From Rhizobium sp. WSM4643 (lineage in GTDB: Bacteria; Pseudomonadota; Alphaproteobacteria; Rhizobiales; Rhizobiaceae): a DNA stretch of 64,000 nt. The stretch is taken from assembly GCF_025152745.1 (NCBI RefSeq), contig NZ_CP104043.1:343297-407296 (forward strand), in the 5' to 3' direction. Below, piece after piece: positions 4,454-46,335 of the stretch. Positions within the stretch are counted from its first letter, which is position 1. Each line of letters opens with the position of its first letter. Made by a program: the position numbers and the translations under genes. The notes under the pieces were generated by a model, which was not told where the DNA came from, did not search any database, and saw only the letters and a program-made list of their open reading frames with translations.

Positions 4454-4466
4454 GCGGGTCGGGATC

Positions 4467-5030: not shown

Positions 5031-5035
5031 CGGCA

Positions 5036-8125: not shown

Positions 8126-8126
8126 G

Positions 8127-10006: not shown

Positions 10007-10026
10007 CCGTCGCGGGGGAATGAGCC

Positions 10027-11925
10027 ATGCTGTTGAAGATTTCCTATGAGGACGGCAGCGGCCGGGAGGTGATCCCGCTCTCGGCGAACGAGACCTATTT
10101 CGTCGGCGAAAGCAGCACGCTGACGTTGCCCGCTGGCGCGGGCGTCGTGCGGCTGCGCGGCAGCCATGTCTCTTCGCCGCAATTCGTGCTGCGGAAATCG
10201 GGCCAGGGCTGGTCGGTGCAGCATCACGGCCGCAACCCGACGCGCGTCGACGATCAGCCGCTTCGAGCCGGCACGCCGGTTGCGGTTTCGGCCGGCATGT
10301 CGATCTGGGTGCCGAACGTCACGATCGAGCTCGTCGAGCCGGCCGCCGCCCCCGTAGCGGTCACGCAGTTTCCCGATCAGGAACGCGTGCTCGCCTTGCA
10401 GATGGAAATTCACGAGCGCCTGCTGAAGGACACGCAGTATGACCGGCTGGTAAAATCCTCCGATTTCGGCCGCGAGGAGACGCGCACCCGTATCCGTGAG
10501 CGTCTCGACATGTTCATCAAGGAGGCGCTCGACGGCGCGCCGCAGGATCTCGTCATCCTCGTCATCAAGAACGCCGTCTATCGGTGGCTGGCAAAACGCA
10601 TCGCCCGGACGGGGCGGCGTGACGCCTCGTCGAATGCCGCAAGCCTCTCGCGTGAGGAGCAGGACAATCGCCGCCTGTTCGATGTCGGCAAGGCGCTGAT
10701 TTCGGCCCTGCAGCTCAAGCTGAACTTCGAATCCACCCGCTCGGACTTCGCCCAGCTCGACACGCGGTTCAGCGCCGCTTTCCAGTCCCGGCAGGCTCTA
10801 TTCAACGCCGGCGACCGCTACGAGATCGCCCATATGCACCTGCGCTCCAATATCGAGGAGCTGATGTATCGCTGGGGGACGATCTCCGAACTGATGGATC
10901 TCGATGTCATCTCGGAAATCATGGTGACGCGCTACGACGAGATCTACGTCGAGAAATTCGGCCTGCTGGAGCGCTACCCCTTCGCCTTCGCCAACGAGCG
11001 GCAGTTGATGAAGGTGATCGAGCGCATCGCCGTCGATTCCAACCGCTCGATCAACGAAAGCGAGGCGATGGCCGACTTCCGCATGCCGGACGGCTCGCGC
11101 GTCAACGCCGTCATTCCGCCGCTGGCGGTCAAGGGCGCTTGCCTGACCATCCGCAAGTTCGGCGGCAAGTCGCGGCTCGATATCAGCAAGCTGGTGACCG
11201 CCGGCGCGCTCAGCGAGCCGATGCGTGCCTTCCTCGAGGCAGCCGTCCGCTCGCGCAAGAACATCGTCGTCTCAGGCGGCACAGGCTCCGGCAAGACGAC
11301 GCTCTTGAACAGCCTGTCTCAGTTCATCCCGGTCGGCGAGCGCGTCGTTGCCGTCGAGGACACGTCGGAACTGCAGCTCGATGGGATCCACGTCGTCTAT
11401 CTGCAATCGCGGCCGAAGACGGCGGAGTCCGAGACCAGCGTCACCATCCGCGACCTCGTGCGAAACGCGCTGCGCATGCGTCCCGACCGCATCATCGTCG
11501 GCGAGTGCCGTGGTGCGGAGGCGATCGACATGCTGCAGGCGATGAACACCGGCCATGCCGGCTCGATGACAACGGCGCATGCCAACACACCGCAGGACAT
11601 GATGACCCGCCTGGAAGTGATGGTGCTGCAGGGGCAGAGCTCGCTGCCTGTCATGGCGATCCGCCAGCAGATCGTTGCCGCCGTCGAGCTCGTCGTGCAG
11701 CTCAACCGCCTGGCGAACGGCCGGCGCGCCGTCACCGAGATATCGGAGGTAATCGGCATCGATCCGGATACCGGCCTCATCATTGTCGAGCCGATCTTCA
11801 ATCTCGTCGGCCGCGCCGGCGGCCAAGCCGTGCATGCCTTCACCGGCTACCTGCCGAGCTTCGTCGCCGAGCTCGTCGAGTTCAACGACGACGGCGAGAT
11901 CGAAAAACTGGACATGTTCGTCTAG
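10027..11925 (+). CDS. FHA domain-TadA/CpaF secretion ATPase fusion
   Basis: 632 residues. The first ~105 residues are an FHA-like beta domain (YFVGESSTLTL, RLRGSHVSSPQFVL, then NPTRVDDQPL), a phosphothreonine-peptide binding fold. From about residue 120 it is a full CpaF/TadA ATPase with SEIMVTRYDEIYVEKFG, Walker A SGGTGSGKTT, RIIVGECRGAEAID and GHAGSMTTAHANTP. TadA proteins usually lack an FHA domain, so this fusion and the FHA protein at the cluster end hint that phosphorylation regulates the machine. It powers pilus assembly or secretion together with TadB/TadC downstream. The ATG follows a GGGGGAATGAG site. Confidence 0.88.
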   Translation: MLLKISYEDGSGREVIPLSANETYFVGESSTLTLPAGAGVVRLRGSHVSSPQFVLRKSGQGWSVQHHGRNPTRVDDQPLRAGTPVAVSAGMSIWVPNVTIELVEPAAAPVAVTQFPDQERVLALQMEIHERLLKDTQYDRLVKSSDFGREETRTRIRERLDMFIKEALDGAPQDLVILVIKNAVYRWLAKRIARTGRRDASSNAASLSREEQDNRRLFDVGKALISALQLKLNFESTRSDFAQLDTRFSAAFQSRQALFNAGDRYEIAHMHLRSNIEELMYRWGTISELMDLDVISEIMVTRYDEIYVEKFGLLERYPFAFANERQLMKVIERIAVDSNRSINESEAMADFRMPDGSRVNAVIPPLAVKGACLTIRKFGGKSRLDISKLVTAGALSEPMRAFLEAAVRSRKNIVVSGGTGSGKTTLLNSLSQFIPVGERVVAVEDTSELQLDGIHVVYLQSRPKTAESETSVTIRDLVRNALRMRPDRIIVGECRGAEAIDMLQAMNTGHAGSMTTAHANTPQDMMTRLEVMVLQGQSSLPVMAIRQQIVAAVELVVQLNRLANGRRAVTEISEVIGIDPDTGLIIVEPIFNLVGRAGGQAVHAFTGYLPSFVAELVEFNDDGEIEKLDMFV

Positions 11926-11926
11926 T

Positions 11927-12006
11927 GCGGTTCCAGAACCGCTCTAGGCTTTTGTTTTTACGCAATTCAGGACGGAAACCGCTTCGCACTTTTCCTGGAA
12001 TTGCTC
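11927..12006. repeat. Palindromic intergenic repeat of Rhizobium type
   Basis: Short palindromic element between the FHA-TadA and tadB genes. It holds a perfect GCGGTTC-CA-GAACCGC inverted repeat (11927-11942), then a second stem between GCAATTC (11963) and GGAATTGC (about 12004). The inner text (ACGGAAACCGCTTCGCAC) is of the type scattered between genes in rhizobial genomes. It may act as an mRNA stem-loop within the operon. Confidence 0.6.
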
Positions 12007-12019
12007 TGAGGGGGAAGCC

Positions 12020-12883
12020 ATGGATATCAGCATTCTGCAGATTTTTACGGTCGCCCTCGGCGCGGTCACAGTGGGACTGCTCGTCTGGGGCGCGCCGGTG
12101 CGCTGGCCGGCGCCGTTGCTGCGCGCCACCGAACGTGACATTGCGCTCGCCAGCGAGGCAGCACAGGTCTTCGGGCGCGATGCCGTTCCGCCCTATACGA
12201 TGATCCTCGCCTACGGCATCACGGCGATCGTCGTCTTCGTGGTGATCTCACTGATCTTCGGGCCGATCTTCGGTTTCATCGTCGCAATTCCCGTCGCGAT
12301 CTTCCTCCCCAAGGGCGTGATCCGATATTTTCTGCAGCGTCGCTGGCTGCAGATCGAATCGCAGCTTCCCTACGCCGTCGACCAGATCGTCTCGGCGGTG
12401 CGCACCGGCAAGCCGCTCGCCATCGCCGTCAATGCGGTGGCCGATACCGGCCAGATGCCGGCCTCGCGCGAGTTCGAGCGGATCGCCCGCGAACAGAAGC
12501 TCGGCATCGGCCTGGTCGAGGCGCTCGACCGCCACGGCCGCAACGTGCCGAGCCTGCATTTCAAGATGGTCGATGCGGCCCTCGGCCTCTTTGCCCGCCA
12601 AGGCGGCGACATTTCCGAACCGCTGACCGAAATGTCGAAATCATTCAAGGAAATCTGGAAGCTCGATCAGAAGATCACGACCTCGTCGTCGCAGGCGCGG
12701 ATGAATTTCCGCGTCGTCAACGGCGGTGCGCTGTTCATGATCCTGATGATCTTCTTCGGCCAGCCTGAACTGATCGACAAGGTGTTCGGCAACGCCATCG
12801 GCATCGTCATCGCGATCGTCGGCGCCATTCTCTATGCCACCGGTTTCTTCTGGATGCGCTCGATGATGAAGGTGTCGGTATGA
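12020..12883 (+). CDS. TadB-like inner membrane platform protein
   Basis: 287-residue type II secretion F-domain protein. Membrane segments lie near residues 8-27, 55-95 and at the C-terminus (about 235-285). The central cytosolic part contains LPYAVDQIVSAVRTGKPL and SREFERIAREQKLG, typical of TadB. The ATG has a GAGGGGGAAG site. It pairs with TadC, with which it overlaps by ATGA, to form the platform on which the ATPase acts. Confidence 0.85.
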   Translation: MDISILQIFTVALGAVTVGLLVWGAPVRWPAPLLRATERDIALASEAAQVFGRDAVPPYTMILAYGITAIVVFVVISLIFGPIFGFIVAIPVAIFLPKGVIRYFLQRRWLQIESQLPYAVDQIVSAVRTGKPLAIAVNAVADTGQMPASREFERIAREQKLGIGLVEALDRHGRNVPSLHFKMVDAALGLFARQGGDISEPLTEMSKSFKEIWKLDQKITTSSSQARMNFRVVNGGALFMILMIFFGQPELIDKVFGNAIGIVIAIVGAILYATGFFWMRSMMKVSV

Positions 12884-13785
12884 TATCTCAGATACCCCTC
12901 GCCCCGATTGCCGTCGTCTTTGCCGGGATCACCGCTGCGCTGTTCGTCTGGTGGATCGGCGATCTGCTCGGCAGCATTCACGTGGTGCGCCGGTCCGCCG
13001 GCGGCGATGGCCCGCCACCCAATATCGTCGACAGCATCGGCATGCGCACCCCGGTCGAATTCGTGCTGACGCATTTCGAGCCGCTCCTGGCCGATTACGG
13101 CGCGCAACTCGAGCAGAAGCTGATCTATGCCGGTCGGCCGTTCGGCGGCGTCACGGGGCGGGAATATATCGCGCTTCTCGTGGTCTTAAGCCTCTTCGGT
13201 TTCGTCGTGCTCGGCCTGCTGTTCGGCATCGCCAGCGGCAGCGTGATCGGCGGGCTGGTGGCCGGGCTGATCCTCGGCCTGATCCCCGCCATCTATTTCT
13301 GGGTCGTCGCCGACGACAAGGCGCAGGACCGCAAGGAACGCATTTCGCGCGAATTCCCCTACTTCCTCGATCTCGTCGTCATGACGCAGCAGGCGCAGGC
13401 GACCTTGCCAGAAAGCCTGAGGCTCTATGCCGAGGCCGCACCCGGCACCGTCATGAGCGAGGAAATCGAACAGACGCTGAAGGACGTGGCGCTCGGCACC
13501 GGCATGATCGAGGCGTTGCAGCGGCTGGAGCGCCGCATGACCGCCGAGGAGGTCATCCGCGTCATCCGCGCCGTGATCCAGGGCGAAGTCGAGGGCAGCA
13601 ACCGTGTCGAGCTGTTGCGCGAACATGCGCGCGACCTGCGCTTCCGCCGCTGGGAAAAGGCCGACAGGGCCAGTGAAAAGCTGAAGGCCAAGATCGTCAT
13701 GCCGGCGATGATGATCGTCGTGTCGATCCTGCTTCTGGTGCTGGCGCCTGCAATTGTCGAGATGATGTCGAGTGGGATGTTCTGA
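12880..13785 (+). CDS. TadC-like inner membrane platform protein
   Basis: 301-residue type II secretion F-domain protein with membrane segments near residues 9-27, 90-145 and 275-297. The conserved TadC stretches are readable: SREFPYFLDLVVMTQQAQ and RAVIQGEVEGSNRVELLREH. It overlaps tadB by 4 bases (ATGA) and is followed after 2 bases by an FHA gene, so all belong to one operon. It is the second half of the TadB/TadC membrane platform. Confidence 0.86.
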   Translation: MISQIPLAPIAVVFAGITAALFVWWIGDLLGSIHVVRRSAGGDGPPPNIVDSIGMRTPVEFVLTHFEPLLADYGAQLEQKLIYAGRPFGGVTGREYIALLVVLSLFGFVVLGLLFGIASGSVIGGLVAGLILGLIPAIYFWVVADDKAQDRKERISREFPYFLDLVVMTQQAQATLPESLRLYAEAAPGTVMSEEIEQTLKDVALGTGMIEALQRLERRMTAEEVIRVIRAVIQGEVEGSNRVELLREHARDLRFRRWEKADRASEKLKAKIVMPAMMIVVSILLLVLAPAIVEMMSSGMF

Positions 13786-13787
13786 TC

Positions 13788-14666
13788 ATGGCCTTTTTTT
13801 CCTTCTTTCGCGGAAACAAACCAAGCCTTCTGCAGACCGGTCCCGGCGGCCAGAGCCGCAGCCATGTGCTCGACCGGCCGGAAATGTCGATCGGCCGGGC
13901 GGCTAATGCCGATATCGTCGTCGACGATCCGTTTCTGGGGCCGATCCATGCGCGTATCGAGCGGCAGAGCGATGGCGGCTTCATCATTCGCCGCATGGGG
14001 CTGAACCCGATCATGCTGCGCGGCGAAGCGCTGTTGCAGACGGCCTCGCTGAAATCAGGCGACAGCTTCCGTCTCGGCAAGGACGTCGAATTCCAATTCG
14101 TCGTCAAGGCCGCCGCCAAGGAAGCACCGAAGAAGCAGACCTCCAAGGCAAGTGATGGCAGGCCGAAAAAATCGCTCCTCAAACAGCCGGCCTTCCTGGC
14201 CGGCATGGGGGTCGTCTATCTCGCCATCGTCGGCATCATCGGCTACGTGATCCTGTCCGGCGGCAGCAGCGCGGAAACTGGCCCGACGGCCGAGCGCATC
14301 AATGCCGAAGCGGCCCGCATTCCGACATGCATCAAGAATGCCCGCCGCATGCGTGAGGTTTCCGAGCAAAGTTTCAACGGGGCCGTCGGCGGCCGCGTCG
14401 GTAGGGACGGCGAGGCAACCTATGCCGCCCTTTCGCTGGCAGCCGAACCGTCTGACGACGCCGCGCTGGCAAAGGCCGCCCAGCCGATCGTCGAGGCTTA
14501 CAAACGCACCGCCCTTGCAGCCCTTGCCTCGGAAAACCGCGGCAACAACACGCTGGCGCAGAGCCTCTACCAGCAGACCTACGATCTCGTCCCCGACATC
14601 AACTGCTCGGCGGCGCGCTTCGCGCTGCAGCGGCGGGCTGCGGTGAAGCCGGTCGCTAGACGGTGA
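13788..14666 (+). CDS. FHA-domain membrane protein of the Tad cluster
   Basis: 292-residue protein with an N-terminal FHA domain, about residues 25-105 (SIGRAANADIVVDDPFLG, then HARIERQSDGGFIIRRMGLNP). A basic linker and one membrane segment (VVYLAIVGIIGYVIL, about 142-160) follow, then a periplasmic C-terminal part with two conserved-looking Cys. The FHA end is cytosolic and could read phosphothreonine marks near the ATPase. Start ATG lies 2 bases after the tadC stop. It is the second FHA protein of the cluster and closes the operon. No kinase gene is inside the cluster itself. Confidence 0.78.
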   Translation: MAFFSFFRGNKPSLLQTGPGGQSRSHVLDRPEMSIGRAANADIVVDDPFLGPIHARIERQSDGGFIIRRMGLNPIMLRGEALLQTASLKSGDSFRLGKDVEFQFVVKAAAKEAPKKQTSKASDGRPKKSLLKQPAFLAGMGVVYLAIVGIIGYVILSGGSSAETGPTAERINAEAARIPTCIKNARRMREVSEQSFNGAVGGRVGRDGEATYAALSLAAEPSDDAALAKAAQPIVEAYKRTALAALASENRGNNTLAQSLYQQTYDLVPDINCSAARFALQRRAAVKPVARR

Positions 14667-16037: not shown

Positions 16038-16349
16038 CTATGTTGGCATCATTGGGGGAAGGTCCGGTCGTCGCTCTCCAATTCCCTGCCGGACGAGCGA
16101 TAGAGTAGCGATACCGGCCTCGTCGGCCGCACGCAGAAGCGCTTCCCGGAATTGTTCCGGGGCAATCTTCCCGCTCAATGCGTCGACGCAGGCTTTGACG
16201 GCAGCCACATATTCCTCGCCGTCATCGCAAGGCCAGTCGTTGATCAGGAGACGCGCCGCGTCGCCCAGCGTCCATACGATCTTGCGAGATGCCGGGCCTC
16301 GCAAGGCAAACCCAACCGGCGTGAATGCTGATGATGTGTTCCAGCACAT
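16038..16349 (-). CDS. DUF982 family protein
   Basis: 103-residue protein with the DUF982 pattern common in rhizobia: GDAARLLINDWPCDDGEEY, then A-C-DALSG and AL-RAADEAGI. The family's function is unknown; rhizobial genomes carry many copies. The start ATG (16349) has GAGG about 9 bases upstream; a longer frame continues into non-coding sequence and is not used. It lies on the same strand as the protease operon but 169 bases beyond its last gene, so probably a separate unit. Confidence 0.7.
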   Translation of the reverse strand: MCWNTSSAFTPVGFALRGPASRKIVWTLGDAARLLINDWPCDDGEEYVAAVKACVDALSGKIAPEQFREALLRAADEAGIATLSLVRQGIGERRPDLPPMMPT

Positions 16350-16518: not shown

Positions 16519-18924
16519 TCACCGCAATTCTGCAGTAACCCGGAAGATGCCGCCGGCTGACGCGTCGGAGCAGACGACGAAGGTCGAGCCCTCCTGCGCC
16601 ATGAAGGCGACGTTGCCGCCGGCTTCGCAGGGGGTGGCGCTCCACTGCAGGATGATATCGCCATTGTCGGGCAGTTTTTCCGGAGTGATCTTCGCCGCAC
16701 TTGCCATCCATTCCGTCGCCGACGGCAGGTGGACGGGGTCGTTCAGCTGCTTCGACAGCCAGGCGGTATAATTCTGCGCCACGGCAAGCGGCACGTCGTC
16801 GGCCGGCTGCTGCGGATTGTCGGCATAGGCCTTTGCTGCGGCGGGGTCGGAATTGGCGGTGTAATATTCCGCCATCTCGGCACGGGTGACCGCCTTCGTC
16901 TGCATGCAGAAGGACTTGTCGATCTTCACGGCGCCATTGGCAACGCCGAGCATGCCGCCGAGCTCCTTCATCGAGGAGGTCATCAGCCGGACGTTCTCCA
17001 GTGAATAGCTTCCGGCCGGGACGGTTTCGAAGGCAAGGGTCTGCGAAACCGGGCAGAAGCCGCGTGCCGACAGCGCCTCGAGATCGGCAAGGATCGGCTG
17101 GTAGGCAACGACCGCGAGCTTATAGGCTTCCGCGGCGTAGCGGCCGTCGGCTTCGCCGATCTTCGGGGCGAGGGCCGCAAGCGTCGGATCGGCCGCACCG
17201 GCGCGGGTGGCGATCGAGGCGTTGAGATCGGCGACTTTCTGCTTCAGCGCCGTCGCCTCGTCCTTTGCCGCCATGACATCGGCGATGACGGCGTCGAACA
17301 GTTTGGCGGCGTCGCCATAGCCTGACGTTGCGGCCGGCATCTGCCATTGCTCGGCCTTGGTCTTGGCCTCGGTCATCAGCCCGCTCGCCTTTTTGACGTC
17401 GGGGCTATCGCCGGCGCCGATGCGATCGACCGTTTCGCGCTTTGCCGCGGCGTCCTTTTCGGCCGCCGCCAGCGCGGTGAGCGCCTTGGCGAGATCGTCG
17501 AATGTTGTTTTCGATGCGTCGTAGGCGTCGACCGCAGCATGCATCTGCTTGGCGGTGGCCGCGTCGGCGGCGGTCTTCATCTTGGTGTCTGCCTCGGCAA
17601 AACCTGGGGCCTTGTCGCCGCCGGCGGCTGAAGCAGCAGCTTTCGCCTTCTCGGCATTCTCCTTGGAGATGCCGATCAGCGCGTTGCCGAGATTGATGGC
17701 GGCCGTCTGGAAGCCCGGAAGCGCCTTTTCATAGTCTTCGTCCTTGAGCAGCGCATCGGCCGATGTCAGCGCCGCAGCGCCCGTGTCATAGGCGAGCTTT
17801 GCCTGATCACCGGAAGCGCGCTCCGGCGCCTTGGCGGCGATCGCCTTCTGCTTGCGGCTTTCGGCCTCCTTCTTCCATGTGCCGACGTCGGCGACAAGTT
17901 TTGGGTCCGGGCGGAGCAGCTTCGGGATGGTGACGACACCGACGCCGATGCAGATCAGGAGCAGCGCGCCGATCATCGACAGTTTGGCAAGCGTCCACTT
18001 TATCGGTTTCGGCGCCTCCTGCTGCTGTTGCATGCCGCCGCGCGGATCCCACGACATCGGCTGGATGCCGGTCGTGACGCGCGCGAATTCGCCCAGCGCA
18101 TCGGCGCCCATGCGCGGTCGCTGGGCCGGGTCGCGGCTCAGCATCCTTTCGACAAGGCTTGCAAGCCCCTCGGGAAAACCCGGAACCAGCACGTCCAGGC
18201 GGGGAAAGACGTTGGAAGGGTCGAGATGGATGTTCTTCCAGCTCTGCTCGCGCTGGTGTTCGTCCTCCCAGACCATGACGCTGTCGAAGACGCTGGCATA
18301 GGTCTGCCGCGGCAGGAAAAGCTTATAGGCGATCATGCCCATGGCGTAGATGTCGAGCGCGGATGAGGCGGAGAAGCTGCCGCTCGCATAGATTTCCGGC
18401 GCGCCGAATTCCGGCACATAGGGCGGGATGATGTGCTCGCCGATCTTCGAGATCAGGTGCAGGTTGCCGATCCGGACCGACAGGCCGGAATAATCCTCCG
18501 ACACATAGATGCATTGGTCCGTCAGGGCATTGTGGGCGTAACCGGCGCCGTGCAATGTCGCCAGGCCTTCGAGGATGTGGCGGCCGATCTCGACGGCGCG
18601 CTCGTAAGCCACCATCTCCGTTTCGTCGAGATATTGGTGCAGCGTTTTCGACGGCCGCTTCTCGACGATATAGAAATTGTCGTCTTCCGGCGACGGCGGA
18701 ATGAGATCCTCGATTTCGACGAAGCGCCGCGCCGTCAGAGATTTGGCCTCGTTGATTGAGGTCCAGACCCGCTCGAAACGAGCCTTGTCCAGTTTCAACG
18801 CCACATCGGGCGTGACGATGAAGACCGCATGGTCCATCCGCTTGTCCTGAGCGGGATAGACGATGAATTCGTTTTCATAGATCGGTTCGCCGATCGTGTA
18901 GCGGGCGATCAGATCACTTCTCAT
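16519..18924 (-). CDS. Transmembrane pseudokinase with formylglycine-enzyme-like C-terminus
   Basis: 801 residues. Residues about 10-280 have the protein kinase fold: hinge NFYIVEKRP, APE motif at 175-177, SALDIYAMG, RDPAQRPR. The catalytic loop reads HNA (131-133) instead of HRD, and the DFG site reads IGN (152-154), so both key aspartates are missing. One membrane segment lies at about 312-335 (LSMIGALLLICIGVGVV). Then comes an Ala/Lys-rich helical stretch (about 340-640). The last ~140 residues resemble the FGE/SUMF1 fold (KSFCMQTKAVTRAEMAEYY, HLPSATEWMASA). Kinase-FGE fusions are known (Pkn1 type). Topology puts the pseudokinase in the cytosol and the FGE-like part outside. The ATG at 18924 follows AGGGGGA. 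Last gene of the five-gene operon. Confidence 0.8.
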   Translation of the reverse strand: MRSDLIARYTIGEPIYENEFIVYPAQDKRMDHAVFIVTPDVALKLDKARFERVWTSINEAKSLTARRFVEIEDLIPPSPEDDNFYIVEKRPSKTLHQYLDETEMVAYERAVEIGRHILEGLATLHGAGYAHNALTDQCIYVSEDYSGLSVRIGNLHLISKIGEHIIPPYVPEFGAPEIYASGSFSASSALDIYAMGMIAYKLFLPRQTYASVFDSVMVWEDEHQREQSWKNIHLDPSNVFPRLDVLVPGFPEGLASLVERMLSRDPAQRPRMGADALGEFARVTTGIQPMSWDPRGGMQQQQEAPKPIKWTLAKLSMIGALLLICIGVGVVTIPKLLRPDPKLVADVGTWKKEAESRKQKAIAAKAPERASGDQAKLAYDTGAAALTSADALLKDEDYEKALPGFQTAAINLGNALIGISKENAEKAKAAASAAGGDKAPGFAEADTKMKTAADAATAKQMHAAVDAYDASKTTFDDLAKALTALAAAEKDAAAKRETVDRIGAGDSPDVKKASGLMTEAKTKAEQWQMPAATSGYGDAAKLFDAVIADVMAAKDEATALKQKVADLNASIATRAGAADPTLAALAPKIGEADGRYAAEAYKLAVVAYQPILADLEALSARGFCPVSQTLAFETVPAGSYSLENVRLMTSSMKELGGMLGVANGAVKIDKSFCMQTKAVTRAEMAEYYTANSDPAAAKAYADNPQQPADDVPLAVAQNYTAWLSKQLNDPVHLPSATEWMASAAKITPEKLPDNGDIILQWSATPCEAGGNVAFMAQEGSTFVVCSDASAGGIFRVTAELR

Positions 18925-18966
18925 GCACGTGTCCCCCTGCATTCATTGCATTCATGAAACCGAATT

Positions 18967-20151
18967 CTATTCGCCCGCCAGAAGCGGATCACCGATCAGG
19001 CCTGCGGCCAGCAGCAGGCCGGTCTTTGTGTCGCGAAGCGCGAAGGCAAAACGGGCATCGGCGACCACGCGAACAAGCTTCGGATCGATGCTGCGTTCCG
19101 TGACCACAGCCGTGGCCGCTGCCGCCTCCGTACCGTTTTCGTCAACCTTGATCATCGTCTTCTGCAGGACGCGCGACAAGCGGATGTTTTCCTTGGTGAA
19201 CCCCGGGAACCCCGCATCCTTGGCCTTCTCGGGCGCCACTCCCATCGCATTGAGTACCGGCATCAAATCACGCCCGTCGTTCAGGGAAAAGCGTGGCAGG
19301 AAGATTTCGCCCCTGGCGGCCTCAAATTTTTCCCCTTGCAGCCAGGAAGCGAGCGCCTTCAGGTCCGCCCCGCCGACACCCTTGCCGGAGCGCGCCGCCA
19401 CCACGACCATGCTGTAGCCCTCGCCGGCATAGGCAAGGTCGACGGCGGTGAATTTCTCGTCGGAGCGGAATTTTTGGCCATCGCCGGCAAGATGCATCAT
19501 CGGTACCGAAATTGTCGAGCCATCCGGCCGCTGAAAGGGGCTTGCCGGGCTCTCCTTCTCGAACGACGTCTTCCAGCGCGCCTTGAAGGAGAGCGCGCCG
19601 AGGCTGACGAAGCCGCCGCCGGGCGGTGCGTCGAGAATTGACGGAATGGCGCCCCTGGTGGCGTCCTTGACCCAACCGTTGATGTGCTCGACCGATTTCG
19701 GTCCGTCGAGATCCTCGATCGAGGGTTTGATGTGGTGGCCGGCGAGCATCGAGAGCGCATCGGGAACAAGCACCAGCTTGTCGTCGAAGACGATCGCGAC
19801 CGCCATCGCCAAAGGCGCATCCGCCGCTGCCGGCTTTTCCGGGGACATCGCCTCGAACGCCGTTTCCGGTCCCTTCACCTCGCCGCCGAAGCCGAGGCCC
19901 TTGGCGATCGAGGCCTTGGCCGCATCGGAGGCGCCGAGGCTTGCAAGGCCGAGTGCTGCGGCAAGGCTTGCCGGCGACACCATGATATTGGCAGCACCCT
20001 CCTTTGCCAGGCTGCGGTCGATCAGTTCGGCGGCAAGCCCGGTTTGCGCGGCAAGCATCGCCTTGCTGTCGCCGGAGTTGCCGGCAGGGGCGGCCGGGGC
20101 AAGCGCCATCAGGGAAGCGGCAAGACCCGCCAGCAGAGTGGATTTCGGCAT
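18967..20151 (-). CDS. Exported serpin (serine protease inhibitor)
   Basis: 394-residue serpin with a signal peptide (cut near APA, residue 23). Family signatures: NIMVSPASLAAALGLASLGA (55-74), INGWVKDATRGAIPSIL (157-173), FKARWKTSF (189-197), and the end ARFAFALRDTKTGLLLAAG. The hinge DENGTEAAAATAVV (337-350) keeps the small residues needed for loop insertion, so it should be inhibitory. Counting from Gly340 as P15 puts P1 at Ser354 and P2 at Arg353; cleavage at Arg353-Ser354 would suit a trypsin-like target. The gene starts 13 bases after the trypsin-domain gene, the obvious partner. The ATG follows GGAGC. Bacterial serpins are uncommon. Confidence 0.9.
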   Translation of the reverse strand: MPKSTLLAGLAASLMALAPAAPAGNSGDSKAMLAAQTGLAAELIDRSLAKEGAANIMVSPASLAAALGLASLGASDAAKASIAKGLGFGGEVKGPETAFEAMSPEKPAAADAPLAMAVAIVFDDKLVLVPDALSMLAGHHIKPSIEDLDGPKSVEHINGWVKDATRGAIPSILDAPPGGGFVSLGALSFKARWKTSFEKESPASPFQRPDGSTISVPMMHLAGDGQKFRSDEKFTAVDLAYAGEGYSMVVVAARSGKGVGGADLKALASWLQGEKFEAARGEIFLPRFSLNDGRDLMPVLNAMGVAPEKAKDAGFPGFTKENIRLSRVLQKTMIKVDENGTEAAAATAVVTERSIDPKLVRVVADARFAFALRDTKTGLLLAAGLIGDPLLAGE

Positions 20152-20164
20152 GGTTCGCTCCTGT

Positions 20165-22696
20165 TCAGCGGACGCGATAGAATTTGGAATCGAACGACCA
20201 TTTGCCTTGGGCGCCGGTTTCGTCGTCGCCGACGATCCTGAGGCTTCGGGCGAGATCGTAGACATAGTTGAAGGCGGCGCGCTGGCCGACGAGCGGCGTT
20301 GGCACATCGGGCAGGTCGAGCACTTCGATCGGCTTGTCGCTGAGGATGGCAACGACCATGCCGACGCCAGCCGGCCCCTCCACCACATATTCGAAGCCGG
20401 TATAGGGATTGCGCGCATCGGGCACGACGACCGGCCGGGCCGGATCGAGCCGGTTGTCGCCGCTTTTGGCTGATGGTTTCAGCCCCATCGAGCGCTTGTT
20501 CGGGTAAAGCTGCGTCAGCTTGCCGGAGGCGTCGATATCGACCAGGATCAAGTAACCGGACGTTTTGGTCGAGACGCGCATCGCCACCTTGTCGCCGATG
20601 CTGACCGCGGTGCCGGGCAGCACGTCGACGGCGACGCCGGCCTCATTGTCGCTCTTCAGCGTGTTTTCGACGGCGGCGACCGGCGTCTTCGCCTCCTCAC
20701 CGGTGATCACATCCCGGCCGAGCGCATCCGGCTGGCCATAAAATTGCGGCACCGGCGTGAAGCGGCAATCCTCCGCATGCGTCCGGCAATATTCGTCCGA
20801 TTTGCGCCGGACATAATCGAGAAGGGCGGCATTGCTGACATTCGGCTTGTCGGCGGCGCGTGCCACGCCATCCTGCACGCCTTCGATGAAGCGGCGGGTG
20901 AAGACGCCGACCGGCGGCTTGGCCTCGCGGTCGACGAGCGCCCACTGCCCTGCGTTGACTGCCGACCAGACCATCGCACTTTCGCCGCCGAAGGAGAATT
21001 TTGCTTCCTTGCCTGATTTGTTCGGCGGTTCGAGCGCTGCCAGCGCCGGGCCGAGGCAACGCACGGTGCCGGAGGGTGCGGCCACAGCGCTGCGGCTGCC
21101 GGGCCCGACATGGCAGGCATCGATCAGCAGCGTCACACGGCGGTCCTTGAGGCTGTTCAGCCGTGCGGCGATCTCGGTTTCGCGAATCTGGTTGGTGACC
21201 GTCACCTTGCCGCCCTCGCGCACCAGCTTGGCATCGACTGCAACCAGCGTCGGGCTCGTCGTTTCATCGGCGCCCATTTCTTCCGAGCCCTGGCCGCTGA
21301 AATAGAGGAAGACACGGCTTCCGGGTGTCGACTGGCGCACCAGCCAGTCGTCGATCTCGGCCAGGATCGCTTCGCGGGTCGCCTTGCGGTTGGTCAGCGT
21401 ATGAATCTGCTCCGGGCGATAGGCGAGCGTCTTGACGAGGAAGACCTGCATCGCCTTCACATCGGTCGCGGAGCCGGTCAGTTTGGCCTCGCGCATCTCG
21501 TACTCGTCGATGCCGATCAGCAGTGCGCGATCGCCGGGCGAGCTTTCGATCACCGGCATCTGGGCGACCGGCGGCTGCACGGCGGGTTCGTCGGTGACGG
21601 GCTTGTCAGCCGGCAAGGTATCGCTGGCGGGCGTGTCGGCAGCAGGCGTTTCGGTCGTCGCGGCTGGCGCGGTATCGCCAGCCGGCGGAGTGGTGATGGC
21701 GAGATTGGCTTCTTCCTGTCCGGACTGCCTCTGCTGCGTGCCGCCACTGGTCGTGGTGGACGCGACCTGATCGTCGGCAGCGGGCCCTTCAACGTCAGGC
21801 ACGTCGCCGTCGGTCTTTGCGGCGATCCAGTCGCGGAAGGCGGCCACACGGGTATAGACGCCGTAATGCTCGGCCTCGGCGCAGCCGGCGCCCCAGCTGA
21901 CGATGCCGAGCTGGATCCAGCGCTTGTCGGGACGCTGGGCGACGAGCGGCCCGCCGCTGTCGCCCTGGCAGGCATCCTTGCCGCCTTCGGCGTAACCGGC
22001 GCAGACATTGCGCTCATCGATCGGGTTCATCCGCATCGAGCTGTCGCGATAGGCGGCGCGGCAGTCCTCGCGCGGGACGATCGGCAGTTCCACTTCCTGC
22101 AGCTCGGTCGGCAGATATTTGTCGTCCCAGCCGTGATCGGCCTTGGTGTAACCCCAGCCGGTGACGACGGCCGGGTGGCCGGCGGCCTCCACCTCGTCGT
22201 CCGAGGCCGAGGCAAGGATCGCCGGCTTCGATTTGGCGGGCTCGCTCAGCTTGATCAGGGCGATGTCATTGGCGAAGACCTTGCGGTCGAAATCTTCGTG
22301 AATGATCACGTCTTCCACGGCAAGCCCCGGCTTGTCCGGCCCGTCGACCGCGATCACCTTGTCGATCTTCGACTTGCCCTCGACGATCAGCAGGTCGCGG
22401 GCGAAGAGATCCTGCTTGCCGGAGCGGCCGCTGGTGACGCAATGGGCGGCCGTCAATATCCACCGCGGTGCGATCAGCGAACCGCCGCAATGGCCGCCGA
22501 AGCGGCCGCGCTGTTCGGGATCGGGCGCCAGGATCTTCACCTGCCAGGGCCATTCGCCCTTCTTGGCCGCCTGGCCGCCGATGACACGTCCGCCATCCTC
22601 GCCGGCAAAATCGGTGTCCTGCTGCGCCAGCACGGGAGTAGCCAGAAGCAGCATGACCGACGCAATAGTGAGGACCCTGCTGATCGACGTGCTCAT
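20165..22696 (-). CDS. Exported trypsin-like protease fused to a caspase-fold and DUF4384 domain
   Basis: 843 residues with signal peptide (cut after VLA, residue 24). Trypsin (S1) domain about 38-295: activation site R37-VIGG, His85 (TAAHC), Asp144 (NDIALIKL), Ser247 (GDSGGP). Asp241 occupies the trypsin S1-pocket position, predicting cleavage after Arg/Lys. A Pro/Thr/Ala-rich linker (300-388) leads to a caspase (C14) fold: RALLIGIDEYE, Cys528 in DACH, but FSGQG (Gln469) where the catalytic His is expected. The C-terminus has a DUF4384 region (GDKVAMRVSTKTSGYLIL, QLYPN). The short propeptide implies a zymogen. The start overlaps the previous stop (ATGA). The serpin downstream is its likely inhibitor. 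Confidence 0.9.
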   Translation of the reverse strand: MSTSISRVLTIASVMLLLATPVLAQQDTDFAGEDGGRVIGGQAAKKGEWPWQVKILAPDPEQRGRFGGHCGGSLIAPRWILTAAHCVTSGRSGKQDLFARDLLIVEGKSKIDKVIAVDGPDKPGLAVEDVIIHEDFDRKVFANDIALIKLSEPAKSKPAILASASDDEVEAAGHPAVVTGWGYTKADHGWDDKYLPTELQEVELPIVPREDCRAAYRDSSMRMNPIDERNVCAGYAEGGKDACQGDSGGPLVAQRPDKRWIQLGIVSWGAGCAEAEHYGVYTRVAAFRDWIAAKTDGDVPDVEGPAADDQVASTTTSGGTQQRQSGQEEANLAITTPPAGDTAPAATTETPAADTPASDTLPADKPVTDEPAVQPPVAQMPVIESSPGDRALLIGIDEYEMREAKLTGSATDVKAMQVFLVKTLAYRPEQIHTLTNRKATREAILAEIDDWLVRQSTPGSRVFLYFSGQGSEEMGADETTSPTLVAVDAKLVREGGKVTVTNQIRETEIAARLNSLKDRRVTLLIDACHVGPGSRSAVAAPSGTVRCLGPALAALEPPNKSGKEAKFSFGGESAMVWSAVNAGQWALVDREAKPPVGVFTRRFIEGVQDGVARAADKPNVSNAALLDYVRRKSDEYCRTHAEDCRFTPVPQFYGQPDALGRDVITGEEAKTPVAAVENTLKSDNEAGVAVDVLPGTAVSIGDKVAMRVSTKTSGYLILVDIDASGKLTQLYPNKRSMGLKPSAKSGDNRLDPARPVVVPDARNPYTGFEYVVEGPAGVGMVVAILSDKPIEVLDLPDVPTPLVGQRAAFNYVYDLARSLRIVGDDETGAQGKWSFDSKFYRVR

Positions 22697-24309
22697 AGCT
22701 TGGCTCCGGCGGAGGTATAGAGGACCGTAAATCCGACACGTGCGCCCTCGGGCAGGAATTCGCCGAGGCGTTTGGCGATATTGCCGGCGGTGCGACGCCT
22801 GTCGTTCTGCTTCAGGAATTCCACAAGTTCGGGCATCGGGGTTTCAGAGGTGACGGCGACGAGCAGGTCCGTGCCGAAAGGTGCGACGACGGAAAGATCG
22901 AGATCGAAGGTCTGAGACATCGCAGCATCGACCTCCTTCTCATTGGGATAGAGGAACTGCACGGTTCCATCGCCGGTGACGTCGAAGAGCACGAGCTTGC
23001 GGCCTGATAAATCCGAAACTGTGACGCCGACCCGCTCGCCTTCACGATGGAGGGTGTCGGAAGGCGTCACGCGTACGGTCTGCGGGTTTGTCTCGGACAG
23101 CCGCTTGAGGGTATCGAGCGCGGCCATCCGGTCGACGACGAAGGGCATGTCGCCGGCGCCGATGGCGGAGGCGACGACATCGCCGCCGGCGATCGCCTCG
23201 CGTTTTTCGGGATCGAAGACGAGTTCGGCATTAGCACCCTGCGTTAGCTTGAACGGCGTGACGGCTGATGCAATCCCCTGCAGCACCGGCTCGGAGCCGA
23301 GGGCGGCAACGCTGATCGGTGCGGGCTCGGCGGGCAGCGGAGCGTTTGGTTTCTCCGTCGCCGCCTGCGCCCCCGCCCCTTGGTAATTATAGACGACGGC
23401 ACGATCGAGATCGGTTCCGGGCGGACTTTCGGTAAAGATGTTCTGCCGCTGATCGGTGAACTGGTAAACCGCCTGGCGCACATATTCGAAGAGCTCGCGG
23501 CGGCTGACGGCGCCGTCGCCGTTGCGGTCGGCCGCCCCTTCGAAAGCGCGAGCGGTGGCATAGCTCAGCGCGCCGCGTTTTTGCGGAATGCCTGGAATTG
23601 ATATCTCGGGCGACTTGGTGTTCTCGTCGACGGCGGCTAGAAAGGTCAACCGCTTGAAATCGAAGACGGTGGACAGCGCATCCGCCGTCGTCGAAATCGG
23701 CGCGAGGTCGTCCTCCTCGATCGTATAGGACGGCGCTTGACGCCATGTGATCTCGGCGCCGCGCGGATCGACGTCGCGGGTCATGCCGCCGGCATGGCAG
23801 GTATCGGCGATGAAGACGACATCGGCGCCCTTGGTCTCCAGATTGCGGATCAGCGCCTTGAATTCGTCGCCGAAGATGCGTTCCCGTGATCCGGGAAGAC
23901 GGGTGTCGAAGCCGGCGAGCACATAGACCTCGTCGCGGCCGCTCGGTTTCGAGCCCTTGACGCGCTCCGGCTCACTCGACCCGTGGCCGGCGATGCCGAG
24001 TACGACGAGGTCACCGGGCCCTGCCCGTTCCGTGACGGCCTCGATCGCGTGGAAGATGCCCTCGCGGTCGGCCGCACCATTCTTCAGCAGCGTCATATCT
24101 TCGACGCCGACCGAGCGCAGCGAAAGGGAAAGGTCTTCGGCATCGGCGACAGCGCCATGCAACGGCGGAACGTTGCGGTAGAGGTCGATGCCGATCAGCA
24201 CGGCCCTGACCGCGCCGCGCTCCGGCGCTTCGATCACCCTTGCCAGGCTATCGGTGGCCGCCATGGTGAGGAGGGCAAGTGCTGCGGCCATGGAAACGGA
24301 TGCGGACAT
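22693..24309 (-). CDS. Exported caspase-fold (C14) protease with EF-hand and DUF4384
   Basis: 538 residues. A signal-like N-terminus (about 1-23) precedes a C14 peptidase domain: RAVLIGIDLY, catalytic His109 in GHGSSE, catalytic Cys171 in ADTCHAGG. Both catalytic residues are intact. Residues 261-272 (DRNGDGAVSRRE) fit the 12-residue EF-hand calcium loop exactly, within the caspase domain; metacaspases are often calcium-dependent. The C-terminal part carries a DUF4384 region (GERVGVTVSD, VQFLYPNEKE). The ATG at 24309 follows GAGGGGAG. It ends in an ATGA overlap with the trypsin-caspase gene and starts 22 bases after the OmpA gene. Confidence 0.88.
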   Translation of the reverse strand: MSASVSMAAALALLTMAATDSLARVIEAPERGAVRAVLIGIDLYRNVPPLHGAVADAEDLSLSLRSVGVEDMTLLKNGAADREGIFHAIEAVTERAGPGDLVVLGIAGHGSSEPERVKGSKPSGRDEVYVLAGFDTRLPGSRERIFGDEFKALIRNLETKGADVVFIADTCHAGGMTRDVDPRGAEITWRQAPSYTIEEDDLAPISTTADALSTVFDFKRLTFLAAVDENTKSPEISIPGIPQKRGALSYATARAFEGAADRNGDGAVSRRELFEYVRQAVYQFTDQRQNIFTESPPGTDLDRAVVYNYQGAGAQAATEKPNAPLPAEPAPISVAALGSEPVLQGIASAVTPFKLTQGANAELVFDPEKREAIAGGDVVASAIGAGDMPFVVDRMAALDTLKRLSETNPQTVRVTPSDTLHREGERVGVTVSDLSGRKLVLFDVTGDGTVQFLYPNEKEVDAAMSQTFDLDLSVVAPFGTDLLVAVTSETPMPELVEFLKQNDRRRTAGNIAKRLGEFLPEGARVGFTVLYTSAGAKL

Positions 24310-24331
24310 GGCCAAACTCCCCTCGCCCCAG

Positions 24332-26284
24332 CTATTCGCGGCGCCATTCGACGCGGCGGTTCAGCGCATCGACGTCGTCTTCGGTGAGGTTTGCGGTTGC
24401 GGTCACGTCCACCGGCTCGGAGGCTCCGCGGCCCTCGGCGTCGATCGTCGCGTCGATGCCTTTGCTCTTCAGGAAGTCGGCGACGGCCTGGGCGCGGCGT
24501 TCGGAAAGTTTCTGATTGTAGTCGTCACCGCCGCGATGGTCGGTATGGCCGATAAGGATGACGCGTCCGGGCTTCTGCTCCTTCAGCGCCTCCAGCAATT
24601 CCTCAGCGGCTTCGGTGCCGATCGAGGTGAAGCTCGACTTGTTGAAATCGAAGGTGATCGGAACCGGAATGGAGACCGGCACGATGCCGCGCACATTCTC
24701 GGAATAGATGCCGCCGAGCACGCCGCTGCGGTGATCCTTCTCGGCCGGCACGAAGCTGCCTTCAGGATGGTCGCTGGTCGGGTTGGCGGCAAGGATGCGG
24801 GCCTGGGCGGCGCGCTGGATGAGATCGGAGATCGTCTCGGCCGGCGGCGCCTTCGGCGTGCGGGTCTCGTTCTTGATGATCTCGATCGCCTGCTGGTAGT
24901 CGGCGGCGGCATCGGCAAAGCGGCGGGCGGAGAAATAGATCTCGCCGAGCGTGGCGGAGGCCTGCCAGAGCACCTGCGGACTGTCGGCGGCGACAAGCAG
25001 CGGCTCGTAATCGGCGACCGGCTGGTTGGCGGCCATCATCTCCTGGGCAGCGGAAAGCCTGAGCGCTGCGACGCGGCGCTGGGCATTCACCTGGAACTGC
25101 CCGCAGTCGGCACTGACGGCGATCGTGTCGGCTTCAGCGGCGGCAGCCGTGATATCCTTGGCGGCAACGGCCGTGTTCAGCTTGTCGAGAAGGGCGGTGC
25201 AAACGGGCGTATCGGCGTTTGCCATCTCGACCTCCTCGCCGGCTTGGCCAGGTTCGGCCGAACGGCCAAGGTTCAGCTGCGGCATCTTGATACTGAAACC
25301 GCCGGGCAGCTTGAATTGCGGCATCTTGATCTGCGGCATCGGCAGTTTGGGCATCTTCGTCTGGGACGTCTGGGTTGGCTGCTTATACTGCGTGGTCGGC
25401 TGTTTATATTCGGTCGGGTTGGTGGATGAGGTGGTGCCGGCCGGACCGATCAGTTGCAGTTCGTCGGCGGCAAGCTCCTGGCCGGGCGCCAGATTGGTGA
25501 CGATCTTGTATTTCTTCGGCGGCTGTTGTGTTGCCTGCTCGACAGGCTTCGGCGTGAGCTTTTTCGGGGTAACGGGCTTCGGCTTTTCCACCACCGTTTC
25601 CGGCTTCTTGGCGACTTCCTGTGTCGTCACCGGCTTCGGAGCGGCTGCGGGTTTCGGCGCAACGGGCGGCTTGGCAGCCTGCTCGACCGGTGCGGGTTTC
25701 GCGGCAGGGGCGGCTGCGACGGGCGGCACCGCGGGCAAGCTGTCGACCGTCGTCAGCGTCAGCGTCTTGCTGCTGATCTTGGTGCCGAGGCTGCGGGCCT
25801 CTTCGAGACTACGGGAGACGGCTTCCATGCCGCCGTCGACGGAGCGGAACATGCCGGCGCCGCTGCCGCCGAGATCGGCAAAGATCGTCAGCGGCTTGGA
25901 GGAATAGAAGACTTTGATCTGCTCCTGGCCGACCGGGCCGGAAACCTGCAGGCGGGCGCCGCTTGCGGGATCTGGCACCTGCACGCGCTTGCCGGCGCCG
26001 ACAAGGGCGTCGGTCTGGTACTTGTTCGGGAAAAGCTTCACCACAGAACCGTTCGGAGAGACATTCAGCACCGTGACATAGGCGTTCTCGGTCGACTGAA
26101 TGAAGAGGCCGACAACTTCGCCGACGGCGTATTTGGCTTCAGCGCGATCGAAGGTGATGCTGACAGGCCCGCTTTGTGCGGGCGCTTCTGTCAATGTGCG
26201 TTCGTTCTGCGCCTCGACGGCGGGAACCACCGAAAAGAACGAAAGAAAGGTGGCTGCGGCTAGGATGGCTTTGCGGTTCGGCAT
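24332..26284 (-). CDS. OmpA-family protein with N-terminal DUF4384
   Basis: 650 residues with signal peptide (cut after VEA, about residue 25). The first domain resembles DUF4384 (VGEVVGLFIQSTENAYVTVL, VKLFPNKYQTD). A long Pro/Lys/Ala-rich linker (about 180-360) with repeated KQPT and PQIKMPQ-type units follows, then a helical TPR-like stretch. The C-terminal OmpA domain has FDFNKSSF and GHTDHRGGDDYN-LSERRAQAV, the peptidoglycan-binding pattern. It should tie the system to the cell wall. First gene of the five-gene operon; ATG with AGGAGG 7 bases before. Confidence 0.88.
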   Translation of the reverse strand: MPNRKAILAAATFLSFFSVVPAVEAQNERTLTEAPAQSGPVSITFDRAEAKYAVGEVVGLFIQSTENAYVTVLNVSPNGSVVKLFPNKYQTDALVGAGKRVQVPDPASGARLQVSGPVGQEQIKVFYSSKPLTIFADLGGSGAGMFRSVDGGMEAVSRSLEEARSLGTKISSKTLTLTTVDSLPAVPPVAAAPAAKPAPVEQAAKPPVAPKPAAAPKPVTTQEVAKKPETVVEKPKPVTPKKLTPKPVEQATQQPPKKYKIVTNLAPGQELAADELQLIGPAGTTSSTNPTEYKQPTTQYKQPTQTSQTKMPKLPMPQIKMPQFKLPGGFSIKMPQLNLGRSAEPGQAGEEVEMANADTPVCTALLDKLNTAVAAKDITAAAAEADTIAVSADCGQFQVNAQRRVAALRLSAAQEMMAANQPVADYEPLLVAADSPQVLWQASATLGEIYFSARRFADAAADYQQAIEIIKNETRTPKAPPAETISDLIQRAAQARILAANPTSDHPEGSFVPAEKDHRSGVLGGIYSENVRGIVPVSIPVPITFDFNKSSFTSIGTEAAEELLEALKEQKPGRVILIGHTDHRGGDDYNQKLSERRAQAVADFLKSKGIDATIDAEGRGASEPVDVTATANLTEDDVDALNRRVEWRRE

Positions 26285-26495
26285 TGGAAAACCTCCTCTT
26301 CGAACAATCTCACACTGTGTTGAAGATGAGAATAGCACTGACCGGCGAAATTGGGATGGCTTTGCCTGTCTTGCTTGAGGGAGGGTTACAAATTATTTGG
26401 AGCCTGCAAGAAGCCGCCAAGGCAAAGACGTGAGCAAGACTCACGCCGGGCAATATCCGGCGCGTTTTATAGTCCGCTCGACTGCAAGGTCGCGG

Positions 26496-46086: not shown

Positions 46087-46335
46087 CTGCCGGATGTCCG
46101 TCGCATCTCGATTCTCACCCCTGAAAGCCAAGGCGCACAAGCACACCGGCCAGTCCAAACCATGTTAGAGCCATAAGAGGCCGGCGCATAGCGGTTTTGC
46201 TTTAAAAAGAAGAAGTTTCATCGAATATTTGCATATTCTCGCGCCACACGGGGAGGAGATGCTTTGCCAACACTTGCTTGGGGCGCGGTTTTCGTTCGGC
46301 GGAAGGCTATTTACGGCGTGAACAGGCCTGAGGGA

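Follow-up and report, generated by a model that had tools for sequence, protein, structure and literature searches.

What would a serpin restrain when its gene stands directly beside that of a trypsin-like protease and near two caspase-fold domains in a bacterial genome? This question is raised by five minus-strand genes of Rhizobium sp. WSM4643, located in a stretch of 64,000 nucleotides of contig NZ_CP104043.1 (positions 343,297 to 407,296), which is called the window here. In the order of transcription, these genes, A to E, encode an OmpA-domain protein (A), an orthocaspase (B), a fusion of a trypsin zymogen with a putative pseudo-caspase and a DUF4384 domain (C), a serpin (D) and a membrane pseudokinase (E). 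A preliminary description of this DNA had proposed a cell-wall-anchored proteolytic cascade with its own inhibitor and a transmembrane sensor. We found that the linked set is real, conserved and apparently undescribed; its parts come from known families, and the layout of protein C is already in print. We consider that the set may form a peptidoglycan-anchored, arginine-specific protease module restrained by its own serpin, and we put the probability of this reading at about 0.45. L and G numbers are our own handles for loci and genomes.

The serpin and the trypsin fusion

Protein D matches the Pfam family Serpin (8e-58) with residues 35-389, which cover positions 2-370 of the 370 in the profile and thus the full-length fold. 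Its relatives in the PDB include conserpin (2e-35) and neuroserpin (4e-30). The hinge of D, ENGTEAAAAT, fits the inhibitory motif ExGTEAAAA (P17-P9), and each hinge residue is kept in 43 or 44 of the 44 orthologues in the genus; the position x is described as E, K or R (PMC8233489) and is N in D. Along the hinge and the reactive-centre loop, Gly340, Thr341, Glu352, Arg353 and Ser354 are invariant in all 44 orthologues. Arg353 is the predicted P1 residue, that is, the bait (Table 1).

Protein C shows three Pfam matches, to Trypsin (7e-55), Peptidase_C14 (1e-15) and DUF4384 (2e-16), and the nearest solved relative of its trypsin is plasma kallikrein (2e-47). The His-Asp-Ser triad and Asp241, which corresponds to Asp189 and lies in the motif DACQGDSGGP, do not vary among the 44 orthologues, and a zymogen activation site, GGR↓VIGG, is predicted after Arg37. 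In the caspase domain, the catalytic His is replaced by Gln469 (SGQ) in 44 of 44 orthologues and the Cys is kept; judged by these residues, the domain is dead in Rhizobium and is a pseudo-caspase. On the one hand, C would be a protease that cuts after arginine; on the other hand, D offers an arginine bait from the adjacent gene. We regard this serpin-trypsin match as a strong hypothesis; the chief alternative target of D would be the caspase.

Proteins A, B and E

Protein A combines DUF4384 (Pfam 5e-21) with a peptidoglycan-binding domain of the OmpA family (6e-16; 59.1 bits against a cut-off of 27.2), and its TPR matches stay under the Pfam cut-off. Protein B matches Peptidase_C14 (7e-12), and its nearest PDB relative is metacaspase-4 (4e-7). 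The dyad His109/Cys171 is intact, with AGHG and DTCH found in 44 of 44 orthologues, and from its sequence the caspase of B looks active. An Asp two residues before the Cys, as in DTCH, is typical of basic-specific caspase homologues, and orthocaspases are reported to cut after basic residues. The latter is stated in an account of prokaryotic orthocaspases (PMC6426788). B also carries a C-terminal DUF4384 that Pfam does not see, which hhalign matched to that of C with a probability of 95.6% and to that of A with 97.0%; accordingly, this domain is common to three of the five proteins (A, B and C). The preliminary description had also given B an EF-hand. The Pfam matches (E 0.0035-0.0049) fall short of the cut-off and the loop sequence differs between orthologues of the set of 44, so that the EF-hand as a calcium switch was rejected.

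Protein E matches Pkinase (Pfam 8e-12), and its kinase-like domain comprises residues 1-290. The catalytic motifs are altered, with HNA for HRD and GNL for DFG in 44 of 44 orthologues, and we class it as a pseudokinase rather than an active kinase; the E protein of locus L119, outside the genus, likewise has HNA, with GDL. The most hydrophobic stretch begins at residue 313-315 in all 44 and marks the transmembrane segment. In the predicted structure, most of the helical part beyond it reaches a confidence score (pLDDT) of about 95. A Foldseek search with the model of residues 341-801, which is confident in the helical part only, returned no match at E <= 0.001. The FGE-like tail named in the preliminary description scored 16.4 bits against a cut-off of 23.3 (Pfam E 0.0076), and the match recurs in three of three further E proteins at 14.9-21.8 bits, always under the cut-off; the label is fair but weak.

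As to export, the preliminary description counted four signal peptides and one membrane protein. Scored by a crude rule among the 44 orthologues, signal-peptide-like N-termini are present in A (44/44), C (40/44) and D (44/44), and E has its transmembrane segment. The count stands for these four proteins, and the signal of B is marginal in Rhizobium.

Conservation in Rhizobium

The DNA of the operon matches 89 plasmid records, 88 from Rhizobium and one from Neorhizobium, the best listed plasmid match being Rhizobium sp. WSM1274 (97.4%), and the host belongs to the R. leguminosarum group. Among 148 genomes of the genus, E was found in 44, D in 45, C in 48 and A in 44, and close orthologues of A, C, D and E co-reside, adjacent, in the same 44 genomes. 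The additional D match is a lone serpin in G167 (34% identical), and the four additional C matches, in G072, G101, G137 and G159, are trypsin-only. B is present at all 44 loci as well, with identical gene order, every gene at full length and no broken copy; the 4-base overlap of B and C is retained in 43 of the 44. A scan of named genomes with two short peptide patterns of E, which detect close relatives only, gave 27 loci, 26 of them in Rhizobium; the 27th, L100, was dropped as a generic kinase (21% over the kinase stretch).

All domains are under purifying selection when compared with four orthologues, with ratios of nonsynonymous to synonymous substitution (dN/dS) of about 0.01-0.22 in domains and 0.14-0.42 in linkers. 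In the trypsin the ratio was 0.05-0.11 and in the serpin 0.12-0.19, compared with 0.03-0.07 in the pseudokinase and 0.07-0.12 in the pseudo-caspase. Constraint on the last two domains is about as strong as on the trypsin.

Two further observations were made within the genus. Three genomes have, at a distance of about 3-23 kb from the intact E gene, short fragments that match E residues about 587-695 with 76-89% identity (G061:C6:623456-623605, G086:C109:208834-209007 and G017:C1249:35854-36166), and such remnants near an intact copy point to past duplication. In G137, a genome of the genus without the operon, the genes of a trypsin and of a caspase-domain protein are separated by about 2 kb, with no serpin (L070).

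Two workable strains have the module. In R. johnstonii 3841 the operon lies on pRL11, from RL_RS32735 (A) to RL_RS32715. In R. etli CFN 42 the serpin lies on NC_007765 (505 kb), which from its size should be p42e, reported to be a secondary chromosome of which cells cannot be cured (PMC9022086); the R. etli papers gave no tag tied to the operon locus. A random-barcode transposon sequencing screen in R. leguminosarum found that pRL110591 is needed for the colonisation of lentil roots, with samples that, according to its authors, were pooled per plant without independent replicates (PMC11103875). L-fuconate dehydratase is pRL110598 (PMC7105596), and since the protein accessions run consecutively from there, pRL110591 should be A; no explicit table gives this correspondence. 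The tags pRL110587-pRL110590 appear in none of the main texts of the literature searched.

Recurrence outside the genus

Serpins are rare in our samples of the order, class and phylum. In the order, 15 of 327 genomes have one, and 13 of these fall outside the genus. In the class it is 9 of 385, or 8 when the genome of the window is set aside, and in the phylum 7 of 304, of which 4 remain after removal of G000, G017 and G652, already counted; the total outside the genus is 25 genomes. In 10 of these 25 out-of-genus genomes, belonging to six families, the serpin lies less than 10 kb from a trypsin, together with OmpA and DUF4384 domains. Six of the loci fall in four other families of the order (L119, L120, L122, L123, L125 and L126), and L138-L141 in two families outside it. 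L119 has all five genes, with about 51-61% identity in the aligned parts (the first 192 residues for A), and L139-L141 have the OmpA, caspase-DUF4384, trypsin-caspase-DUF4384 and serpin genes in the same order. L125 has a trypsin-DUF4384 protein without a caspase, and in L126 and L138 part of the set is in opposite orientation. The preliminary description had named homologues scattered singly, with no conserved linkage, as a finding that would speak against it; we searched for this pattern, and the linkage is kept in the genus and in the six other families.

The other 15 serpin genomes, including all 4 of the phylum sample, showed no trypsin in the fetched stretch, and this is the meaning of unlinked here; the stretch covers at most about 10 kb on each side and is shorter at contig ends. 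A serpin on a second contig of G718 was left out of this check. G454, one of the 15, has a trypsin-caspase-DUF4384 protein on another contig (L154).

In the ten cassettes outside the genus that link serpin and trypsin, the residues expected to set specificity recur. Asp189 is present in all ten trypsins, within a D(S/A/T)CQGDSGGP pocket, and eight of the ten have an activation site of the form R↓(I/V)(I/V)GG, the exceptions being L122 and L123 with R-ILDG. All ten serpins have an arginine bait, and the next residue is Ser, Gly or Ala. Out-of-genus bait residues were read by eye, with the spacing off by a residue in some and with L143 and L167-L170 excluded.

Serpin and trypsin are also associated across the 327 genomes of the order: a trypsin is present in 9 of 15 serpin genomes versus 23 of 312 others (Fisher p 9e-7), and with the genus removed in 7 of 13 versus 23 of 312 (p 3e-5). 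In 8 of the 9 serpin genomes with a trypsin, the two lie within 10 kb. This tally includes matches that cover the trypsin part at E <= 1e-30 among the top two candidates of each genome, and its counts are therefore minimum values.

For the converse test, the profile of C was run over the 327 genomes and twelve further places were fetched. The out-of-genus cassettes were therefore chosen by serpin (10) or by matches to the C profile, and the split between those with and without a serpin is not that of a random sample. L151-L155 have a C protein with trypsin and degenerate caspase and a DUF4384 protein in the place of B (not visible in L155, whose stretch begins inside C), with no serpin in the stretch. 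In L161, a trypsin that matches DUF4384 weakly stands beside a weakly matching caspase, again without a serpin, and L160 is a trypsin alone in G216, a genome that also has the linked set L123. In L156-L159, OmpA and two caspase-DUF4384 proteins occur with neither trypsin nor serpin in the cassette. This arrangement recurs in other families and may represent the ancestral module.

All eight serpin cassettes in which a caspase domain was identified with confidence (Rhizobium, counted once, L119, L125, L126 and L138-L141) retain an intact dyad in at least one caspase. The dead caspase differs among them: it is C in Rhizobium, B in L139-L141 and neither in L119, L126 and L138. Out-of-genus caspase states come from one alignment or from pattern searches, and the caspase of L120 is doubtful. 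We argue from this reciprocal loss that one caspase activity matters and that the other domain serves as a scaffold. E behaves differently: among the stretches examined, it is present only in Rhizobium and one other genus (L119 and L150). E is accessory, and what is conserved as a unit is not the set of five.

Proposed mechanism

In the mechanism that we propose, A, by means of its OmpA domain, would hold the module at the peptidoglycan, and the parts would probably assemble via the DUF4384 domains that A, B and C have in common. C would be exported as a trypsin zymogen joined to an inactive caspase domain and DUF4384, and B would be an active orthocaspase. Cleavage after Arg37 of C, either by C itself or by B, would free the N-terminus of the trypsin and activate it. 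Considering that B and C are both predicted to prefer basic residues, activator, protease and bait would follow one arginine-based logic. D, with its arginine bait, would then trap the active trypsin covalently, and the protease would be active briefly or only once D is exhausted. E, with its external helical and FGE-like part, would have been added in the Rhizobium lineage, probably as a receptor or scaffold. We infer the localisation, the formation of a complex, the activator of C, the inhibition of C by D and the output, which may be envelope or surface remodelling on roots. Of the preliminary proposal, the envelope location, the OmpA wall anchor and the trypsin-serpin match are backed by the sequence, and the treatment of five genes as one unit is not; the sequential cascade and the sensor role of E are plausible additions.

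We also advance, more tentatively, a wider reading in which the locus is an endogenous serpin-controlled switch of the envelope. A kallikrein-like zymogen and an orthocaspase would sit on an anchored DUF4384 scaffold with a co-encoded suicide inhibitor and, in Rhizobium, a pseudokinase receptor, as a counterpart of coagulation-type or Toll-type cascades, and lineages would repeatedly inactivate one caspase and keep it as scaffold.

Alternative explanations

Several results weigh against a serpin-restrained trypsin module. Arg353 lies one residue before the canonical P1 in a 17-residue loop count. We took it as P1 because Arg-Ser stands there and because C1-inhibitor and alpha-2-antiplasmin have the same one-residue bait spacing. 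An arginine bait is also present in 8 of 11 unlinked serpins; a linkage-specific bait was accordingly rejected, and the bait is necessary for the model and not specific to linkage. The distances of serpins and trypsins correlate with r 0.69 for 12 sequences, but for 8 separate lineages the correlation is weak (r 0.34, p 0.04). Seven of 17 inspected out-of-genus trypsin cassettes have no linked serpin, which indicates that the serpin is not an obligate antidote; one of them, L150, has A, an intact B, C and E. B passes the signal rule in only 4 of 44 orthologues because its hydrophobic N-terminus has no basic residue, and its export is less certain in Rhizobium as a result, although in the 12 out-of-genus caspase-domain B proteins visual inspection shows both a basic residue and a hydrophobic segment there. 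Finally, the AlphaFold2 model of B was discarded (pLDDT 38), so that its S1 pocket is read from the DxC motif alone.

In one rival explanation, the main target of the serpin is orthocaspase B and the trypsin is a downstream executor or an activator. The DTCH motif of B would suit an arginine bait, and in plants AtSerpin1 acts on metacaspase AtMC9 (PMC10609998). The best support comes from five genomes of one other genus, labelled g54 (G196, G233, G267, G296 and G343), which also count against our reading: they have lone serpins with an arginine bait and a match to the caspase-DUF4384 part of C, with no trypsin match among the two candidates scored in each, and a caspase target fits them better. 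The serpins of g54 stand apart from the caspase-DUF4384 cassette (L158 and L159 versus L124 and L117), and in L117, L118 and L121 an open reading frame with a caspase domain lies in the same 20-kb stretch as the serpin. In addition, five of the seven serpin-less trypsin cassettes (L151-L155) had no intact caspase dyad in a simple pattern search. However, in L122 and L123 a serpin accompanies a trypsin and the fetched stretch contains no caspase, and the intact B caspase of L150 has no serpin. None of the four inspected trypsin-less caspase cassettes has a serpin either: in L156 and L157 both dyads are intact by motif, and in L158 and L159, where the His of B is kept and the C-type dyad is dead by motif, the only serpin is a lone one elsewhere in the genome. 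We consider this rival rather doubtful as the main explanation. It is also unlikely, in our view, that the module faces outward, with secreted or surface proteases that digest as food, or act on, proteins of plants, protists or competitors and a serpin that shields the cell against foreign proteases instead of its own. Bacterial serpins with a named role do act on host proteases (PMC8233489), and the lentil-root result for the tag that should be A agrees with an outward role, but the OmpA anchor and the common DUF4384 hint at retention at the wall, and the serpin gene directly neighbours that of the trypsin. Cassettes of this kind are found beyond the order as well, so that the role is probably not particular to legume roots, and the text of a R. 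leguminosarum secretome paper contains no pRL11 tag (PMC2275737).

Known defence systems make use of caspases, trypsins and kinases, for instance in trypsin-nuclease pairs (PMC12799240), which would suggest an anti-phage or self-killing device. The searches of the operon proteins with PADLOC and NCBIfam gave generic or sub-cut-off matches only: the PADLOC matches were to caspase and kinase models (MkoA, PD-T4-6 and mad6), to the OmpA part of ZorB and to the trypsin part of LmuA, and no model was specific for any of the five proteins. Most parts have signal-peptide-like N-termini, and the operon contains no STAND NTPase, gasdermin, CRISPR or nuclease gene, the scan for such genes being confined to the operon. 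A known defence system was rejected for want of a specific model and because parts appear exported, and we judge a defence role in general very improbable. The 44 Rhizobium copies could stem from one ancestral arrangement, and the genes could then be neighbours by shared descent on a conserved replicon with no joint function. In six other families, the set is found again with its genes rearranged, fused or divergently oriented; a chance neighbourhood was rejected on this linkage, and we give such an explanation almost no credence. The serpin-restrained protease module is our preferred reading.

Relation to known systems

Bacterial precedents exist for parts of the proposed module. Staphopain-staphostatin operons co-encode a secreted protease with its own protein inhibitor, as here; they differ in their folds and in the cytoplasmic location of the inhibitor, and they are not known to have a wall anchor, a caspase pair, a zymogen-bait match or a pseudokinase. 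CRISPR-linked caspase cascades are bacterial cases of proteolytic activation that form part of antiviral systems. Plasma kallikrein and C1-inhibitor resemble C and D as a trypsin fold with an arginine-bait serpin, but they are eukaryotic, are encoded by separate genes and have no assembly of the DUF4384/OmpA kind. The rhizobia considered here are non-photosynthetic. A 2019 paper holds that, among the Alphaproteobacteria, only photosynthetic organisms have pseudo-orthocaspases (PMC6426788), and the Rhizobium clade of protein C does not fit this claim.

The same paper described pseudo-orthocaspases of the QC type with an active-looking N-terminal trypsin and a C-terminal DUF4384 (Klemencic et al., PMC6426788), and C shares with them the intact trypsin triad, a p20 with Gln-Cys and DUF4384. 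Its accessible text, which ties pseudo-orthocaspases to photosynthesis and reports that DUF4384 often accompanies kinase domains, has no occurrence of 'serpin', 'operon' or 'Rhizobium', and A, B, D, E and their linkage are absent from this part of the account. Bacterial serpins such as miropin, the siropins and those of Bifidobacterium have, like D, an inhibitory hinge and an N-terminal export signal; those with a named role target host proteases, whereas D has a candidate target of its own next door (PMC8233489). The role of many prokaryotic serpins is called enigmatic there, and prokaryotes are said to be without complex proteolytic signalling. The trypsin-nuclease pairs likewise rely on proteolytic activation but are antiviral, and the accessible text uses neither 'serpin' nor 'periplasm' (PMC12799240). 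AtSerpin1 and metacaspase 9 are a serpin acting on a caspase homologue, but they are eukaryotic, with separate genes and no DUF4384/OmpA assembly (PMC10609998).

The preliminary description knew of no described bacterial system with this combination. Among the open-licence papers listed, supplements aside, we found no description of the linked operon, which does not prove its absence in print; for protein C, the claim has to be narrowed, considering that its architecture has been in print since 2019. A serpin located beside a matching trypsin and caspases makes the target directly testable, in a class of bacterial proteins where the role of many members is open, and R. johnstonii 3841 and R. 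etli CFN 42 are suitable strains. The module also gives DUF4384, the pseudo-orthocaspases and a conserved pseudokinase a common biological context, and it may offer a mechanism behind the published, unexplained result on root colonisation.

Gene layout and neighbouring genes

The five open reading frames of the preliminary description are present with its named products, and Pfam agrees with them. The operon spans 16519-26284, and the recomputed gaps A/B, B/C, C/D and D/E are 22, -4, 13 and 42 bases. This spacing suggests co-transcription of A to E. Blocks conserved across the 44 loci precede A, in a likely promoter region in which a sigma-70-like match is single and weak.

Table 1. Coordinates in the window of the operon, its domains and sites, and its neighbours
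Feature	Position	Strand	Description
Gene A	24332-26284	minus	putatively exported DUF4384 - Pro/Gln-rich linker - TPR-like - OmpA protein, 650 residues
DUF4384 of A	25892-26131	minus	
OmpA domain of A	24392-24655	minus	
Gene B	22693-24309	minus	orthocaspase (caspase-fold cysteine protease) with DUF4384, 538 residues
DUF4384 of B	about 22822-23091	minus	C-terminal
Gene C	20165-22696	minus	trypsin zymogen - putative pseudo-caspase - DUF4384 fusion, 843 residues
Arg37 of C	22586-22588	minus	predicted zymogen activation site; invariant in 44/44 orthologues
Gene D	18967-20151	minus	putatively exported serpin, 394 residues
Reactive-centre loop of D	19081-19140	minus	ENGTEAAAATAVVTERSIDP; Arg353 (codon 19093-19095) is the predicted P1
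Gene E	16519-18924	minus	pseudokinase - transmembrane segment - helical repeat region - FGE-like domain, 801 residues
Transmembrane segment of E	about 17926-17982	minus	
Helical repeat region of E	17065-17904	minus	
FGE-like domain of E	about 16696-16914	minus	
Intergenic stretch upstream of A	26285-26495	minus	conserved blocks; predicted promoter region
Sigma-70-like match	26420-26392	minus	
DUF982 gene	16038-16349	minus	follows E
Tad pilus cluster	2468-14666		adjoins the operon
Caspase protein with Sel1 repeats	31715-34294	minus	
YcaO-TfuA pair	41889-43891	minus	4-base overlap
BTAD/TPR regulator	44155-46158	minus	

By tag count, the DUF982 gene after E should be pRL110586, which was reported to be 2.3-fold up in a mutant of praR that forms enhanced biofilms on roots (PMC4149787). 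The adjoining Tad pilus cluster contains two T2SSE ATPases, TadE- and Tad-type proteins, RcpC, a prepilin peptidase and two T2SSF proteins, and its last member is an FHA-domain protein. Upstream of the operon, at a distance of about 5.4 kb, lies a caspase protein with Sel1 repeats (Peptidase_C14 1e-38, Sel1 3e-31); at the matching position R. johnstonii 3841 encodes RL_RS32770, a caspase family protein of equal size. The YcaO-TfuA pair is a candidate locus for peptide or protein thioamidation, and the BTAD/TPR regulator stands beside it.

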